DNA from: Bacteroidota bacterium
GTDB lineage: Bacteria > Bacteroidota > Bacteroidia > AKYH767-A > 2013-40CM-41-45
NCBI GenBank assembly: GCA_026391945.1
Contig: JAPLDA010000060.1
Span: forward strand, 1-44,993
DNA length: 44,993 nucleotides
Direction of reading: 5' to 3'
Of the stretch, positions 34,720-43,074 are shown piece after piece (positions within the stretch are counted from its first letter, which is position 1; every line of letters starts with the position of its first letter). Below the pieces are notes generated by a model. The model did not search any database and was not told the DNA's origin. It was given only the letters and a program-made list of their open reading frames with translations. Position numbers and translations under genes: made by a program.

Positions 34720-34825
34720 GTCACACCTCTGAAATTCCATGACCTGTAGAATGGATTCAGCCGGATTCGAAAAAAGTTGCATCAGAAAAATGTATCTTTA
34801 TGATTCAATTCGATTGTCATTCCCC

Positions 34826-36781
34826 GTGAAAAAAAGAATCGTATGGTTGTTTAGCTTTCTTGCCCTGCAATCGTTTGCACAGGGACAGCGATTCGTTAAC
34901 TCCATGGATATTTCCGAATCAGAAGGGAAGGCTGCCATGAGAAATTTTTGTAGTGAGCATGTTGCTTCTTCTTCACTGGATCGCTATGATTTGAAATACC
35001 ACCGTCTTGATTGGCATGTGGATCCCAATGTGAATTTTATTTCAGGTGCCATCACTTCTTATTTCCAGGTAGTGGATGCTAATTTTTCTGAAATAGATTT
35101 TGAACTGGCCGATAACATGTCAGTCGATTCGACATCTTATCATTCTGTTCCCATTTCATTTCTCCATTCAACAGGAGACCTGCTGCGGATTACATTTCCC
35201 TCAGTCATTTCACAGGGTAACCTGGATTCAGTAACAGTTTATTATCATGGTACTCCCGGTGCAACAGGTTTCGGATCGTTTGCACAGGATTATCATTCCG
35301 GTGTTCCCATCATCTGGACATTGTCGGAACCATACGGTGCAAAAGACTGGTGGCCGTGCAAGCAGGAACTCAGTGACAAAATTGATTCTCTTGATATCCT
35401 TGTCACCACTCCACAGGCTTACCGGGCAGCCAGTAACGGGTTGCTTGTTTCAGAAATATCCAATCCTGATTTTTCAAAAACATATCACTGGCAAACTCAT
35501 TACCCGGTGGCGGCTTACCTTGTTGCCATTGCTGTCACCAACTATGTGTATTATACGGATTATGTCACGTTGAATTCCGGCGACTCACTGCCCATTCTCA
35601 ATTACGTTTACCCGGAAAGTTTAAGCGATGCACAATATTATTTGCCTGACATCAAGGCGATCATCAGGATCTATGATAGTTTACTGATTGACTATCCTTA
35701 TCACAGGGAAAAATACGGTCACGCTGAATTCGGCTGGGGCGGAGGAATGGAGCACCAGACGATGAGTTTTGTCGGGGGCTTCGGTCATAATTTAATTGCT
35801 CATGAATGTGCACATCAATGGTTCGGTGATTTGATCACACCGGCCAGTTGGAAGGATATATGGCTCAACGAAGGATTCGCAACATACTTTGCTGCTATAA
35901 CTGAAGAAATTCTTTTTCCGGAATCCTGGCATCCCTGGAAAACAAACACGATGAACCTGGTCACCGCGCAGCAGGATGGTTCGGTGTTTTGTGATGATAC
36001 CACCAGTGTTTCCCGGATTTTCAGCGGCCGGCTTTCCTATAATAAGGGAGCTTTTTTACTTCACATGCTTCGCTGGCAACTGGGGGATTCACTTTTTTTT
36101 CTAAGCCTACGGAATTATCTCAGCGATCCGCAACTTGCCTTTCATTATGCCTCTACGCCGGATCTTCAGCATCACCTCGAACAGGTAAGCAATCAAAATC
36201 TCTCTCATTTTTTTAACCAGTGGTATGCCGGTCAGGGTTACCCGATGTATCACCTGACATGGAACCAACAGGCGAATCATTTTTATCTGAAAATAGAACA
36301 GCGCCAGTCGCATCCGTCTGTTTCGTTTTTTGAAATGCCCGTGCCTGTTGAACTCCGTGGTGAAGGCCATGATACTATCCTTGTGTTGAATCATACGTAT
36401 TCCGGCCAGTTGTTTTCCCTGGACATTCCGTTTCATGTCGACACCATTTCTTTCGATCCGCAGCAATGGATTTTGGCGGCGCACAATATGATAACGTATA
36501 ACCCGGTTTTCAGTCCAGGCAACCCGGATCCGCTGTCATCACAGTTGTATGTGTATCCGGTACCAGCAGAAACAGTTATTAAAATTTACAGTTCTTCTTC
36601 TGCCCGGTTGGAGGAAGCAACCATGTATGATGTGCTGGGAAACCTGGTCATGCAATACATTCTCCAGCCGTCCATGCTTCCTTACGAACTTGATGTTTCC
36701 GGAATAGAAGCCGGTGTTTACCTGTTGAATGTAAAAACTGATCTCGGCACGGTCACAAAAAAAATAGTCAGAACCCGTTAA
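34826..36781 (+). CDS. M1-family zinc aminopeptidase with T9SS sorting domain
   Basis: 651 residues from GTG 34826, which gives a compact signal peptide (KKRIVWLFSFLALQSFA, cleavage before Gln-Gly). In-frame ATG 34790 and a start at 34739 give longer N-termini, but TATCTTTA at 34793-34800 resembles a -7 element and would put them upstream of transcription. The gluzincin site is complete: GGGMEHQT (Glu309, exopeptidase loop), HECAHQW (His326, Glu327, His330), Glu349 in LNEGFA. The last ~80 residues carry a type A T9SS domain (YVYPVPAETVIKIYSS, then GIEAGVYLLNV). It probably trims peptides outside the cell. The start is uncertain. Confidence 0.9.
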   Translation: MKKRIVWLFSFLALQSFAQGQRFVNSMDISESEGKAAMRNFCSEHVASSSLDRYDLKYHRLDWHVDPNVNFISGAITSYFQVVDANFSEIDFELADNMSVDSTSYHSVPISFLHSTGDLLRITFPSVISQGNLDSVTVYYHGTPGATGFGSFAQDYHSGVPIIWTLSEPYGAKDWWPCKQELSDKIDSLDILVTTPQAYRAASNGLLVSEISNPDFSKTYHWQTHYPVAAYLVAIAVTNYVYYTDYVTLNSGDSLPILNYVYPESLSDAQYYLPDIKAIIRIYDSLLIDYPYHREKYGHAEFGWGGGMEHQTMSFVGGFGHNLIAHECAHQWFGDLITPASWKDIWLNEGFATYFAAITEEILFPESWHPWKTNTMNLVTAQQDGSVFCDDTTSVSRIFSGRLSYNKGAFLLHMLRWQLGDSLFFLSLRNYLSDPQLAFHYASTPDLQHHLEQVSNQNLSHFFNQWYAGQGYPMYHLTWNQQANHFYLKIEQRQSHPSVSFFEMPVPVELRGEGHDTILVLNHTYSGQLFSLDIPFHVDTISFDPQQWILAAHNMITYNPVFSPGNPDPLSSQLYVYPVPAETVIKIYSSSSARLEEATMYDVLGNLVMQYILQPSMLPYELDVSGIEAGVYLLNVKTDLGTVTKKIVRTR

Positions 36782-36784
36782 TGA

Positions 36785-37630
36785 TCAGTTTGTTTTCGCT
36801 GGTGTTTTCTTTTTGAGCAAAAAAGTTTTGACGATATAAAAAGCAGAGACAGCCAGGAAGATGGCACCGAGCATGGCTACGATGGAAGAGCCCGCCGGGA
36901 AATCGAATTTGTAGGATACATGCAAACCGAAGAATGCACCGGAGATGCTAAGCACGATGGCTATGATCACAACTGCTGCATTTTTCCTCGCCAGCATGAT
37001 GGCTCCCACGGCAGGAATGATCAGGAAAGAAAATACAGGAATCACTCCGCTGATGCGAACAGCGAATACAATGCTCAGCCCGATGGAAATGTAAAAAAGA
37101 AAATTCCATGGATTGAAAATGCCGATGGAATGTCCTTCATTGTTTTCAAATCGTTGAGTGAGGGAAAAGAATTTTCTAAAAAAAATGATGTGAAGCAAAG
37201 CGAGGCATCCGAAAACAATACCCGTCATTTTGATCTGGTCCCAGCTTACTGATAAAATGTTTCCGAATAAAACTTCCTGGATGTCGGAATCGCCGTGCGG
37301 GGTTTTTGAAATAAGCATGACTGTTACCGCAGAAGCAATGGCATACAGAATCCCGATGATGGCTTCCAGTTTCAGCCTCTTGTCGCGGATGTTGATCAGC
37401 GACATCAGGAATGCACCGACAATTGCAAAAAGTATGGGGATGAATGTTTTTCCTTTCCCGATGTAATCAGAAAAGGCGACACCCAGCGATGAAATCTGAC
37501 CGAGTGCAAGATCAACAAATACAATTCCTCTTCCAACCACGTGTACGCCGAGGTAGGAGAGAAGGATGCCGACGATGGCGCTGATGGTAAATGCCTGTAC
37601 AATGAAATCGAGTTTAAACATTTCAAACAT
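36785..37630 (-). CDS. Metal ABC transporter permease (ZnuB/MntB-like)
   Basis: 281 residues of the ABC-3 family with about eight membrane helices. LDFIVQAFTISAIVGILLSY opens the protein, followed by GVHVVGRGIVFVDLALGQIS; the coupling region is EAIIGILYAIASAVTVMLIS. It forms the inner-membrane channel for Zn2+, Mn2+ or Fe2+ delivered by the binding protein encoded just upstream. The ATPase that normally sits between the two genes is absent. The gene stops three bases from the convergent M1 peptidase. The metal cannot be assigned from the permease alone. Confidence 0.88.
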   Translation of the reverse strand: MFEMFKLDFIVQAFTISAIVGILLSYLGVHVVGRGIVFVDLALGQISSLGVAFSDYIGKGKTFIPILFAIVGAFLMSLINIRDKRLKLEAIIGILYAIASAVTVMLISKTPHGDSDIQEVLFGNILSVSWDQIKMTGIVFGCLALLHIIFFRKFFSLTQRFENNEGHSIGIFNPWNFLFYISIGLSIVFAVRISGVIPVFSFLIIPAVGAIMLARKNAAVVIIAIVLSISGAFFGLHVSYKFDFPAGSSIVAMLGAIFLAVSAFYIVKTFLLKKKTPAKTN

Positions 37631-37684
37631 GGTGGTTTTTTTTATACTATTGAAATTGATTTTGGATTGACTTAAGAAGCGAAA

Positions 37685-38590
37685 TTATTTCATCACCGAA
37701 ACCAGCTGGTTGATGTTGTAATCAAAGAGATCGTAATAATTTTTAATTCCATCGAAAGCCCCGACCGACGTGGCCAGCGTCAGCACTTTAGCGCCGGTTT
37801 GTTTGGCCACCACGTCAGAAGATGAATTGGTGAAATAGGGAGAGGAGATGATTACTTTGATGGAATTGTTTTTTACCTCGCCGATGATTTTTACAAGTTG
37901 TGAAGGCGTTGGCGGAATGCCAGGTTTCGGTTCCAGGAAATCGACGATCTGCAAACCAAAACGGTTTTCAAAATAACACCACTCGTTGTGGTAGGCGATC
38001 ACTTTCATGCCTTTGTATTTTGCCATGACTGAATTCCATGCTTTCAGTTTCTGGTCGATGGTTTCGTTGAATACTTTCAGGTTCGCTTCAAAATAATTTT
38101 TGTTTTCCGGCGATATTTTTTCAAGCCCGTTGCAGATATTCCTTGCGATGAATTTACCGTTCAACGGATCCAGCCAATAGTGCGGGTTTCCGAAGATGTG
38201 AATGTCGCCTTCTGCCCGGTTGATGCTGGAAGGAACCTGCATCAGCGGAACGCCAAAAGAAGCATCCACATAACCCGGACTTCCTTTCTGAATTTTCTGA
38301 TTTCTTGAACTGGATAGCAGTGAAGGCGACCATCCCGTTTCAAGGTCCAGGCCAAGTGTTACAAAGAGATCTGCATTGGAGAGTTTGATGATGTAACTTG
38401 GTTTAGGATCCACGAAGTGCGGGTTCTGGTAACCTGTTGCAATGGCAAAGACCTCCACCTTGTTGCCGCCGATGATTTCGGTGATGCTTTTGGTGTCCTG
38501 GGTGGTCGTCACCACGTGGATGTTTCCCGCCTGTGCGCGACCGGAGATGATGATGAGAACGATGACAACTATTTTTTGAATGTTTTTCAT
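37685..38590 (-). CDS. Metal ABC transporter substrate-binding protein (ZnuA-like)
   Basis: 301 residues of the cluster A-I (SBP_bac_9) family, with a signal peptide (~1-21, ending RAQA). Likely metal ligands are His58 (NPHFVDPKP), His137 (NPHYWLDP), His201 (AYHNEW) and Asp280 (GAFDGIKNY). The acidic residue often found in the strand before the last domain is replaced by the sequence SSPYF. There is no His-rich loop as in E. coli ZnuA. It delivers metal from the periplasm to the permease encoded 54 bases downstream. It is 42 bases after the barrel gene on the same strand, so one operon is likely. Confidence 0.88.
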   Translation of the reverse strand: MKNIQKIVVIVLIIISGRAQAGNIHVVTTTQDTKSITEIIGGNKVEVFAIATGYQNPHFVDPKPSYIIKLSNADLFVTLGLDLETGWSPSLLSSSRNQKIQKGSPGYVDASFGVPLMQVPSSINRAEGDIHIFGNPHYWLDPLNGKFIARNICNGLEKISPENKNYFEANLKVFNETIDQKLKAWNSVMAKYKGMKVIAYHNEWCYFENRFGLQIVDFLEPKPGIPPTPSQLVKIIGEVKNNSIKVIISSPYFTNSSSDVVAKQTGAKVLTLATSVGAFDGIKNYYDLFDYNINQLVSVMK

Positions 38591-38632
38591 TTTCCTTTTG
38601 TTTAAGTATGCGTAAGAATGATAACGGTTCCA

Positions 38633-39790
38633 TTAATACTGGTGTGCTCCATGTGTGCCGATCACGAAGATCCACCGGAGAAAAATCTGAGTAAAGTTTT
38701 TTTCATAATTGTTCAATGCATCCGGTTGGTTGGCAAACGTGGCTTTGCCCTGCAATTCTATTTTTTGAAATTCAGTCGCGTACCATCCGAATGTTGTGGA
38801 TGCAGCCTGCTCCACGAACTGTACCGAAGAAGGCTTGTTCGTATAGTCATAGCGCGCTGTCACAAACCAGCGTTTTGATACTTGCAGGTTCATGAGCGAA
38901 TACAAACCGATGGAGTTTACCGTGAGGCTGTCGAACTGCGCATGACTGAAATAGATTTCATTCTGAAAGGTGAATGATTTGTAGGTGTTGTATTTTACAG
39001 GCTTCCATTTGTAGGTGAGATCGGCGGCGCCGACATTCGTTTGGTGATCTGTAAAATTCGCTCCTGAAATTCCGGTGAGTCCGAGTTCAAGAGTCGCATT
39101 TGCAGTCAGGTCCCAGAAATTTTTCAGGTGGGCAAGTTTGAGATAATTGTTTTTTGAACTCCTCGCAAACCCCGGGCTGTCACGCGGTCCGTCAGTCACT
39201 TCCACCGTCAGTTCCTGGAAAAATGCCTGGTTCGGAAGCAGCCAGCTGAGTTGAAGTCCCTCATCATTCATTCCTTCCTCTCCAAAAAATCTGACGAAAG
39301 CATTCGGCATATCCACGAAGGCAAGCGCATGAGGATGTACGGGATTTATTCTGCCGAGTGCCTGTTTGAATTTCCCGGCTTTGAGCTGCAGGTGAGCGGG
39401 AAGCGAAAGCGTGGTTAAATATCCTTCTTCAATTTCGCTTTTGAATTCCCCCGTTACGGGGTCGCGTGTAATGGAAATAAAAAAATCTGCTTTGGCATAC
39501 GGATCCACAGTCGACTGAAGCGATATCTCCGTTTCGTGAAGGTTGGCGTCAAAATTACGGCTGTGGTTACTTTGGTAACTTCCCCTGAAATCACCGATCA
39601 CGCTGATGTCCGGGTTGGCCGATGGCGCTGATCTCGGAGCGGGAGCATTCGTTACAGCATTGTTTTCCTGCGTCAGTTGTTTCTGTATCTCCTGTAACAA
39701 CAGGGAGTCCGGAGTCGTGCTGTCAGTCTGAGCATACACGGGAGAAATCAGCAGGATGGAGAAAGTGATTGCACCAATTATTTTTATCAT
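38633..39790 (-). CDS. Outer-membrane beta-barrel protein, porin-like, in metal-uptake operon
   Basis: 385 residues. A signal peptide (MIKIIGAITFSILLISPVYA) is followed by a ~40-residue polar Gln/Asn/Pro-rich linker and then alternating strands (e.g. HETEISLQSTVDPYAKADFF, LQLKAGKFKQALGRINP). The C-terminus ends in aromatic Tyr, as in many barrels. There is no TonB box or plug domain, so it is more like a phosphate-selective-porin-type channel than a TonB receptor. Its place upstream of the ZnuA-like gene suggests metal passage across the outer membrane. Substrate is inferred only from context. Confidence 0.65.
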   Translation of the reverse strand: MIKIIGAITFSILLISPVYAQTDSTTPDSLLLQEIQKQLTQENNAVTNAPAPRSAPSANPDISVIGDFRGSYQSNHSRNFDANLHETEISLQSTVDPYAKADFFISITRDPVTGEFKSEIEEGYLTTLSLPAHLQLKAGKFKQALGRINPVHPHALAFVDMPNAFVRFFGEEGMNDEGLQLSWLLPNQAFFQELTVEVTDGPRDSPGFARSSKNNYLKLAHLKNFWDLTANATLELGLTGISGANFTDHQTNVGAADLTYKWKPVKYNTYKSFTFQNEIYFSHAQFDSLTVNSIGLYSLMNLQVSKRWFVTARYDYTNKPSSVQFVEQAASTTFGWYATEFQKIELQGKATFANQPDALNNYEKNFTQIFLRWIFVIGTHGAHQY

Positions 39791-39889
39791 GGAATGGTTT
39801 TATCATGCAGTATGAAAAGGAAGTAATATGAAAGCACTTGCTTTCATAGCATCAGTTTTTAAAGGGTCAGCTTTAAACTGATCAATGCA

Positions 39890-40228
39890 TTATACAACCG
39901 GAGGTCCCCTGAAAAATAAAAAAGGAGAAGATGAATAAAAATAATCACATGATGTTCCTGTTGAAACAGAAACCGGAATAACAGAAGTATGCAAAGTGAA
40001 AATGTTTGCCTCATGAAACATCGGCGGAACTGAAAACTGCAGCATGTCGCAATGCTGATGCAGGGCTTCGACATGCGTGGATGTTTCGGAATGTGCAATT
40101 AAGTCAAACGTGTCATCGTGATCGGTAAGTTGATGAATAAGTTCAGTGGGCGTCACAAAAAAGGAAACGGCAGCCAGGAGAAACCAGGCTATCCATTTTC
40201 TTATGTTGTTTTGTTTAGCTGAATACAT
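39890..40228 (-). CDS. Small His-rich membrane/exported protein of unknown function
   Basis: 112 residues. One hydrophobic segment (~12-26, IAWFLLAAVSFFVTP) is followed by a segment rich in His and acidic residues (IHQLTDHDDTFDLIAHSE; HVEALHQHCDMLQF) and a C-terminus ending FFRGPPVV. I recall small Bacteroidota proteins with the same plan and RGPP ending near metal transport genes, uncharacterised as far as I know. The cluster of His, Asp and Cys could bind zinc or copper. It is first gene of the module, 99 bases from the barrel gene. A -7 element lies only five bases before its ATG, so the mRNA may be nearly leaderless. Confidence 0.6.
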   Translation of the reverse strand: MYSAKQNNIRKWIAWFLLAAVSFFVTPTELIHQLTDHDDTFDLIAHSETSTHVEALHQHCDMLQFSVPPMFHEANIFTLHTSVIPVSVSTGTSCDYFYSSSPFLFFRGPPVV

Positions 40229-41886: not shown

Positions 41887-42981
41887 TTACAAATTCCCTC
41901 TCAATGCCTGTTCCCTCTCAATGGATTCAAACAGGGCTTTGAAATTTCCCTTACCGAATGATTTGGCTCCTTTCCGCTGGATGATTTCAAAAAAAACAGT
42001 TGGCCTGTCCTGGACTGGTTTCGTAAACAACTGGAGCAGGTACCCTTCTTCATCACGGTCAACGAGGATGTTCAGGCGTTTCAGCGTTTCGATGTCTTCA
42101 TCAATTTTTCCGACACGCTCAATTAAATCGACATAATAATTTTCCGGAACATAGAGAAAATCGACTCCGCGGCTGCGAAGTTCCGTAACCGTGTGTTCGA
42201 TGTCGTCCGTGAGAACAGCGATGTGCTGAACTCCTGCACCATGATAAAATTCGATGTACTCTTCAATCTGCGATTTTTTCTTTCCGCTCGCCGGCTCATT
42301 GATCGGGAACTTCACGTACCCGTTTCCATTGGAAACCACTTTGCTCATCAACGCCGAATATTCGGTGCTGATATCCTTGTCATCGAAGGTGAGCAGGAGT
42401 TTGAAGCCCATCACATCTTCGTAAAATTTCACCCACTGGTTCATGGCTCCGAGTTCCACGTTCCCGACACAATGATCCACCACTTTCAACCCAACGGGTT
42501 TGACTGTGAGGGAACTTTTGGCAGGCTTATATCCCGGGAGAAAAACTCCTTTGTAATTTTTTCTTTCCACGAATTTGTGAATCGTGTCGCCGTAGGTATG
42601 AATCGAAGCAATTTTTACTTCGCCGTTTTCATCGCTCAATACCGTAGGCTGCGTATGTGCTTTCGCGCCGCGCGACATGGTTTCGTAAAAAGATTTTTCA
42701 GCATCATCCACCCATAACGCCAGGACTTTTACTCCATCACCATGCTTTACATGATGCTGGGTGATTTCACTTTCAGGCTGCAGCGAAGAGGTAAGGATGA
42801 TCCTGATTTTTCCCTGCTGCAAAACATACGATGCACGGTCGCGGACACCGGTTTCCGGGCCGGCGTAGGCGATGAGTTCATAACCCCAGGCAACCTGGTA
42901 GTAATAGGCCGACTGCTTGGCATTGCCAACCCAGAATTCAACGTGATCAGTTCCGTTTAACGGAAGAAAGTCTTGTGACAT
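41887..42981 (-). CDS. hppD: 4-Hydroxyphenylpyruvate dioxygenase
   Basis: 364 residues from the ATG at 42981. A longer open frame begins 31 codons upstream, but it overlaps the promoter, and MSQDFLPLNGTDHVEFWVGN is the family start. The Fe(II) ligands are His170 (VVDHCVGNVE), His253 (GVQHIAVLTDD) and Glu332 (VFFEIIQRKG). The enzyme turns 4-hydroxyphenylpyruvate into homogentisate in tyrosine breakdown. Downstream homogentisate genes are not adjacent. It follows yidC on the same strand with its own promoter, so the pairing seems coincidental. Confidence 0.95.
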   Translation of the reverse strand: MSQDFLPLNGTDHVEFWVGNAKQSAYYYQVAWGYELIAYAGPETGVRDRASYVLQQGKIRIILTSSLQPESEITQHHVKHGDGVKVLALWVDDAEKSFYETMSRGAKAHTQPTVLSDENGEVKIASIHTYGDTIHKFVERKNYKGVFLPGYKPAKSSLTVKPVGLKVVDHCVGNVELGAMNQWVKFYEDVMGFKLLLTFDDKDISTEYSALMSKVVSNGNGYVKFPINEPASGKKKSQIEEYIEFYHGAGVQHIAVLTDDIEHTVTELRSRGVDFLYVPENYYVDLIERVGKIDEDIETLKRLNILVDRDEEGYLLQLFTKPVQDRPTVFFEIIQRKGAKSFGKGNFKALFESIEREQALRGNL

Positions 42982-43043
42982 GGTATTAAATTTATGATTG
43001 AATGGCGTATCGAATACATGTTTCCCATGAGTGTGGGAAGACG

Positions 43044-43074
43044 CAAATATCTTAATAAAGTCAGGAATAATCAA
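43044..43074 (-). promoter_or_regulatory. Promoter of the dioxygenase gene
   Basis: Minus strand: TTG (43072-43074), 20 bases, GATATTTG (43044-43051), then CGTCTTCC, which repeats the TTTGCGTC start seen at hppA and rpsF. It gives a leader of roughly 60 bases. Confidence 0.6.

Follow-up and report, generated by a model that had tools for sequence, protein, structure and literature searches.

An ATPase-less relative of ABC-type metal importers conserved in a large clade of Bacteroidota

Introduction

The defining feature of ATP-binding cassette (ABC) importers is ATP hydrolysis, which is also thought to drive the handover of the substrate from the substrate-binding protein (SBP) to the permease. 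What, then, do such a permease and SBP do where no ATPase accompanies them? The question is raised by four minus-strand genes at positions 36785-40228 of the window, that is, the whole 44,993-nucleotide stretch of DNA analyzed here (contig C107, GenBank JAPLDA010000060.1), from a draft Bacteroidota assembly (G000; 3.10 Mb, 114 contigs, scored as 100% complete). An earlier note, made from the sequence alone, had described these genes as a metal-uptake module that spans the outer membrane, the periplasm and the inner membrane and has no ABC ATPase between or beside its genes. The coordinates, protein families and neighboring genes agree with this description, and the metal-uptake character of the module is supported by three invariant histidines of the SBP and by the conserved gene order. 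As described below, a metal-type ATPase is missing from the entire genome, and the module has none throughout a large clade; a single loss accounts for the data, and metal transport by the module probably takes a different route that does not depend on ATP. A clade whose modules have no ATPase and yet keep the SBP, the permease and an outer-membrane barrel under strong selection is a natural experiment on the capabilities of the ABC permease fold by itself. Annotation pipelines would probably label the module as a zinc/manganese ABC transporter, implying ATP-driven uptake where no such ATPase exists.

The locus and its relatives

The four open reading frames fill the interval exactly and are transcribed in the order small His-rich protein, barrel, SBP, permease, with intergenic gaps of 99, 42 and 54 bases:

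36785..37630, minus strand: ABC-3 family permease, 281 aa (PF00950, E = 1.4e-38, 133.3 bits against a cut-off of 20.1), a member of the clade without ATPase
37685..38590, minus strand: periplasmic metal-binding protein (the SBP), ZnuA/MntA-like, 301 aa (PF01297, E = 3.2e-52, 178 bits against a cut-off of 29)
38633..39790, minus strand: porin-like outer-membrane barrel, 385 aa (16 strands in the AlphaFold2 model, Foldseek matches, alignment)
39890..40228, minus strand: small His-rich protein, probably periplasmic, 112 aa (homologues in L054 and L056)

The gene order in relatives, which the earlier note had proposed to check, was followed through searches at the phylum and class levels and annotation of about 60 retrieved neighborhoods. 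The ATPase-less arrangement recurs in 48 other loci; with the window, this makes 49 distinct loci from 48 genomes within the phylum, the order being kept across families. Two of these loci come from the same family as the window, namely L056 (genome G002; permease 77% identical) and L054 (G005, a Bacteroidetes metagenome-assembled genome; 73%), and a third, L055, from an Ignavibacteria metagenome-assembled genome (60%). The barrel, SBP and permease genes are directly consecutive in these loci, a few of which are clipped by contig ends. By their permeases, the loci fall into a core group (29), a second or HEAT branch (9) and a group with a shortened cytoplasmic loop (11). Most of the second-branch permeases are about 500 aa long (the exceptions are L201 and the contig-cut L205), and L095, the one scanned, carries C-terminal HEAT repeats (PF13646). 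The fused HEAT domain may serve as a cytoplasmic partner in place of the ATPase. These long ABC-3 permeases without ATPase are encoded at:

L095:5256-6758
L096:5904-7403
L097:1606-3114
also in L194, L202, L203 and L204

Among ATP-bearing systems, the closest relatives come from the same phylum and have the operon order barrel-SBP-ATPase-permease (L099, L206, L208, L209, L210 and L232), with the ATPase gene located exactly between the genes for the SBP and the permease, which adjoin each other in the module. In the permease phylogeny, a branch with a Shimodaira-Hasegawa-like approximate likelihood ratio test (SH-aLRT) value of 93 separates the 49 ATPase-less permeases from 29 ATP-linked ones. 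After removal of long-branch and near-duplicate rows, the ATPase-less clade has support of 98/93 and is present in 96% of the bootstrap trees. A single loss of the ATPase accounts for these data. The ancestor would have been an ordinary ABC-type metal importer encoded by a barrel-SBP-ATPase-permease operon, perhaps headed by the gene for the small protein. Its ATPase gene disappeared in one ancient event, in the common ancestor of this large group within the phylum, and the SBP and permease genes are now adjacent.

Search for an ATPase partner

The earlier note had suggested that the module might depend on the ATPase of a distant gene or on one that serves several systems, and had named a dedicated znuABC set elsewhere as one finding that would speak against its reading of the module. 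No such set exists in G000, where a genome-wide search detected a single ABC-3 permease and a single PF01297 protein, both in the module. Neither did the suggestion of a distant or shared ATPase hold up, given that G000 has no ZnuC/MntB-like ATPase and no FecCD importer, that its other ATPases differ, and that the docking motif of the permease is gone; sharing of an ATPase between systems is thus unlikely. The genome contains 37 matches to the ABC_tran domain, the best of which reaches 83 bits with the ZnuC model (cut-off 306). A profile built from 14 metal-importer ATPases (A1) was run on 62 genomes. It gives 254-357 bits for the ATPases of intact ABC-3 systems (234 for one partial gene), in contrast to a best score of 145 bits in G000, no better than background. 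Nothing exceeds ~161 bits, the generic ABC background, in the 24 module genomes with a completeness of 90% or more (G000, G002, G005, G422, G151, G230, G313, G258, G301, G136, G550, G578, G555, G527, G581, G554, G521, G595, G540, G557, G423, G552, G588 and G561). These profile searches, with their positive controls, lead us to reject an unlinked znuC. The best models for ten single-domain ATPases of G000 are LolD/MacB, LolD (two), FtsE, MlaF-like or similar (two), ABC-2 exporter (three) and CcmA-like; the remaining ATPases were classed by sequence inspection.

Borrowing of a FecCD-type ATPase was rejected as well. Among 12 module genomes checked, the FecCD permease is missing from G000 and seven of the 11 others (G002, G230, G301, G136, G550, G540 and G423), and a true FecCD permease is present only in G422 and G151; the FecCD matches in G527 and G581 are themselves ATPase-less ABC-3 permeases. 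A FecE/BtuD-like ATPase scoring 205-226 bits with the A1 profile occurs in 11 module genomes and adjoins FecCD in one case (L112). Matches of this class also turn up where the metal operon has retained an ATPase of its own (G113, G074, G536, G546 and G530), so this protein is not a specific partner of the module. It is the central open reading frame, with no adjacent permease gene, in L113, L114, L250, L251, L253, L254 and L255; these orphans lie near genes that, by sequence inspection, are nusB-like, fructose-bisphosphatase-like or leucine-dehydrogenase-like.

The genes that recur beside the ATPase-less loci are a short-chain dehydrogenase, a family of generic ABC ATPases covered by the analysis above and others with no relation to the module; we found no new energizing partner specific to these loci. 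The short-chain dehydrogenase gene lies near the permease gene in loci with and without the ATPase (L097:920-1609, L098:2315-3319 and about 11 others).

The permease

The best structural match of the permease model is PsaB (7kyp; Z 23.0, 227 residues, 3.1 Å). A cytoplasmic motif is present in ABC-3 permeases of solved structure; in PsaB, which was aligned with the permeases studied here, it reads SFDELLAKAMGM. From what is established for type II importers, this motif corresponds to the coupling helix that contacts the ATPase. Three segments of the window permease are relevant here:

37127..37156, minus strand: residues 159-168, the site at which ATP-linked ABC-3 permeases have the coupling-helix motif FDxxxAxxxG, absent here (column table, PsaB alignment)
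37496..37513, minus strand: residues 40-45 (DLALGQ), of which D40 and Q45 are invariant in the ATPase-less clade (alignment)
37364..37366, minus strand: residue E89, at the position of MntC D94 by alignment

The coupling pattern, D(3)A/S(3)G/R, is present in 25 of the 29 ATP-linked permeases, in none of the 29 core permeases (window included), in 4 of the 9 of the HEAT branch and in none of the 11 short-loop proteins, all of which have the segment deleted. Within the protein, the conservation of this segment ranks at the 11th percentile in the core group versus the 92nd in the ATP-bearing sister group. The best-conserved stretch of the core permeases spans residues 30-50 and falls in the same region as D47 and H51 of MntC. 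Around residues 40-45, the sequence of the ATPase-less clade is FVDLALGQ or a close variant of it. D47, H51 and D94 of MntC are essential for manganese import (PMC8487065). D40 is found in 49/49 ATPase-less and 0/29 ATP-linked permeases, and Q45 in 49/49 and 7/29, respectively; position 89 is Glu in all 49 of the former and Asp in all 29 of the latter. Since the ATPase-less permeases form one clade, D40, Q45 and E89 are fixed clade markers; they may also form a new metal path. The permease and SBP genes are under purifying selection, with ratios of nonsynonymous to synonymous substitution rates relative to the G002 orthologues of ~0.08 and ~0.06, respectively, values that are rough because synonymous changes are near saturation.

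The binding protein, the barrel and the small protein

H58, H137 and H201 of the SBP are invariant in all aligned relatives, and its N-terminus resembles a signal peptide. The SBP profile matches solved manganese- and zinc-binding proteins alike (the PDB relatives being MntA, ZnuA and PsaA) and so fits either metal. The AlphaFold2 model of the barrel (pLDDT, the predicted local distance difference test score, 81) has 16 strands and a helix (163-169) in an inward loop, and its Foldseek matches are OmpT, VhChiP, OprP and OprO. The window barrel has no Pfam match that would place it in a named porin family. Its alignment reveals a conserved HxH motif and a C-terminal GxHGAHxY motif, which suggest a role in metal handling.

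The small protein, which ends in RGPP, belongs to a fast-evolving family that precedes metal-uptake barrels and is typified by His clusters, often a CxxC motif, and a C-terminal RGPP/RAPP. A strict pattern detects a member upstream of the barrel gene in 26 of 46 loci without the ATPase and in 5 of 6 loci with it. No NCBIfam model matches the small protein of the window, and neither does DUF2946 (PF11162); the L096 relative scores 21.1 bits with the latter (E = 5.7e-4), just under the cut-off of 23.7, and DUF2946 may be a distant relative of the family.

Proposed mechanism and alternatives

Taken together, these observations suggest the following route. A divalent metal, probably Zn2+ and possibly Mn2+, would cross the outer membrane via the porin-like barrel, with the small His-rich protein and the barrel's own His motifs aiding its passage. 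The three-His SBP would then capture the metal and hand it to the permease of the ABC-3 fold, which would move it inward without ATP hydrolysis, down a gradient created by the membrane potential and cytosolic metal buffering. Alternatively, transport could be driven by proton coupling via the clade-specific D40 and E89 and, in two branches, H30. We consider it moderately probable that the permease moves SBP-delivered metal in this manner, be it by membrane potential and buffering or by ion coupling. There is about an even chance that the clade represents, more specifically, a class of SBP-dependent secondary transporters on the ABC permease fold, that is, an ABC importer lineage turned into an ATP-independent (ion-coupled or equilibrative) metal transporter with its path rebuilt around D40/Q45/E89. 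Several points weigh against this reading. A tight metal-binding SBP usually needs ATP-driven opening for release. Separate ABC-3 systems or metal-type ATPases, which could be borrowed, are present in 12 of the 48 module genomes; these cannot explain the remaining ones. The docking site has been lost incompletely, as the coupling motif survives in part of the HEAT branch, and the clade-wide residues may mark nothing beyond common descent.

If the permease were no longer a transporter, the SBP and permease would form a periplasmic metal receptor or sensor, or a membrane dock that passes metal to other proteins. To this possibility we give modest weight. The disappearance of both the ATPase and the docking motif fits a loss of transport, the cytoplasmic loop is variable, and the HEAT repeats fused in one branch are usually protein-binding; however, the entire permease fold is retained, its best-conserved stretch lies in the region of the MntC metal path, no conserved signaling partner is encoded beside the modules, and the barrel gene is always kept together with those for the SBP and permease, as expected for uptake. 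We regard it as quite unlikely that the permease is still part of an ABC importer that borrows an ATPase, be it of a generic kind (LolD, MlaF, FtsE or ABC-2 type) or the orphan FecE/BtuD-like protein, in the way that MsmK is a single ATPase serving several sugar importers. The abundance of ABC_tran matches in G000, the FecE/BtuD-like ATPases without an adjacent permease gene and, to some extent, the motif kept in the HEAT branch speak for such borrowing. Nevertheless, the 24 near-complete module genomes, G000 included, have neither metal-type nor FecE-like ATPases, G000 has no FecCD system and its ATPases fit other families, the orphan ATPase is likewise present in genomes where the metal operon has one of its own, and the coupling segment is lost in the core group and deleted in the short-loop branch. 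An artefact, with the ATPase gene missing from the assembly or the operon decaying, is conceivable for a draft of 114 contigs and yet exceedingly improbable: the module lies inside a 45-kb contig, its genes are all open and under purifying selection, and the recurrence of the same order in 48 other loci, some of them from near-closed assemblies with 9-10 contigs (G002, G422 and G230), speaks against both chance and a local assembly gap.

Comparison with known transporters

The module shares with ZnuABC, MntABC, PsaABC and TroABCD the SBP and permease families, the PsaB fold and the three-His SBP site, and by these families it is a derived variant of ABC metal importers. It differs from them in having no ATPase in the operon or the genome, in the lost coupling-helix motif, in the D40/Q45/E89 signature and in the barrel gene within the operon. 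Both an ATPase and the coupling motif, two hallmarks of such importers, were looked for and neither was found, so we do not class the module as an ABC importer despite its kinship with ZnuABC and MntABC. The best-scoring NCBIfam models are AztB for the permease (108.7 bits) and AztC for the SBP (84.3 bits), from the AztABCD zinc importer; these scores are far under the curated cut-offs (280 and 350 bits, respectively), and the AztA ATPase has no counterpart here. The barrel-SBP-ATPase-permease operons of the phylum share the barrel and SBP families, the gene order and often the small protein but, unlike the module, retain both the ATPase and the coupling motif and have Asp at position 89. TRAP (tripartite ATP-independent periplasmic) transporters exemplify binding-protein-dependent transport without ATP, as proposed here, with other membrane proteins (DctQM) that do not derive from an ABC permease and mostly organic-acid substrates. 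The solitary S-components of energy-coupling factor (ECF) transporters, BtuM and solitary BioY, are likewise the membrane part of an ATP-driven importer without its ATPase module, although their fold is unrelated and they have neither a periplasmic binding protein nor an outer-membrane barrel gene. The closest precedent by analogy is BtuM, as it sustains uptake even when the host is devoid of ECF modules (PMC6072759). We found no prior description of ATPase-less ABC-3 modules in the literature searched, which covered few subscription journals.

Other features of the genome and the window

A ZIP-family gene elsewhere in G000 indicates that the module need not be the sole zinc route. A conserved Zur/Fur-like palindrome was looked for upstream of the module and not found, and scans for sigma-70 promoters and terminators gave sites no commoner than in shuffled sequences; Bacteroidota promoters differ from those of this type. 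No ATPase is encoded by the flanking genes, a TlpA-like thioredoxin protein upstream (minus strand) and, downstream, a peptidase that converges on the module:

34739-36781, plus strand: M1 family peptidase that bears a sorting tail for type IX secretion

Farther upstream, 41887-43074 (minus strand) encodes a 4-hydroxyphenylpyruvate dioxygenase (TIGR01263, 452 bits), the listed TTG start of which is probably too far upstream.

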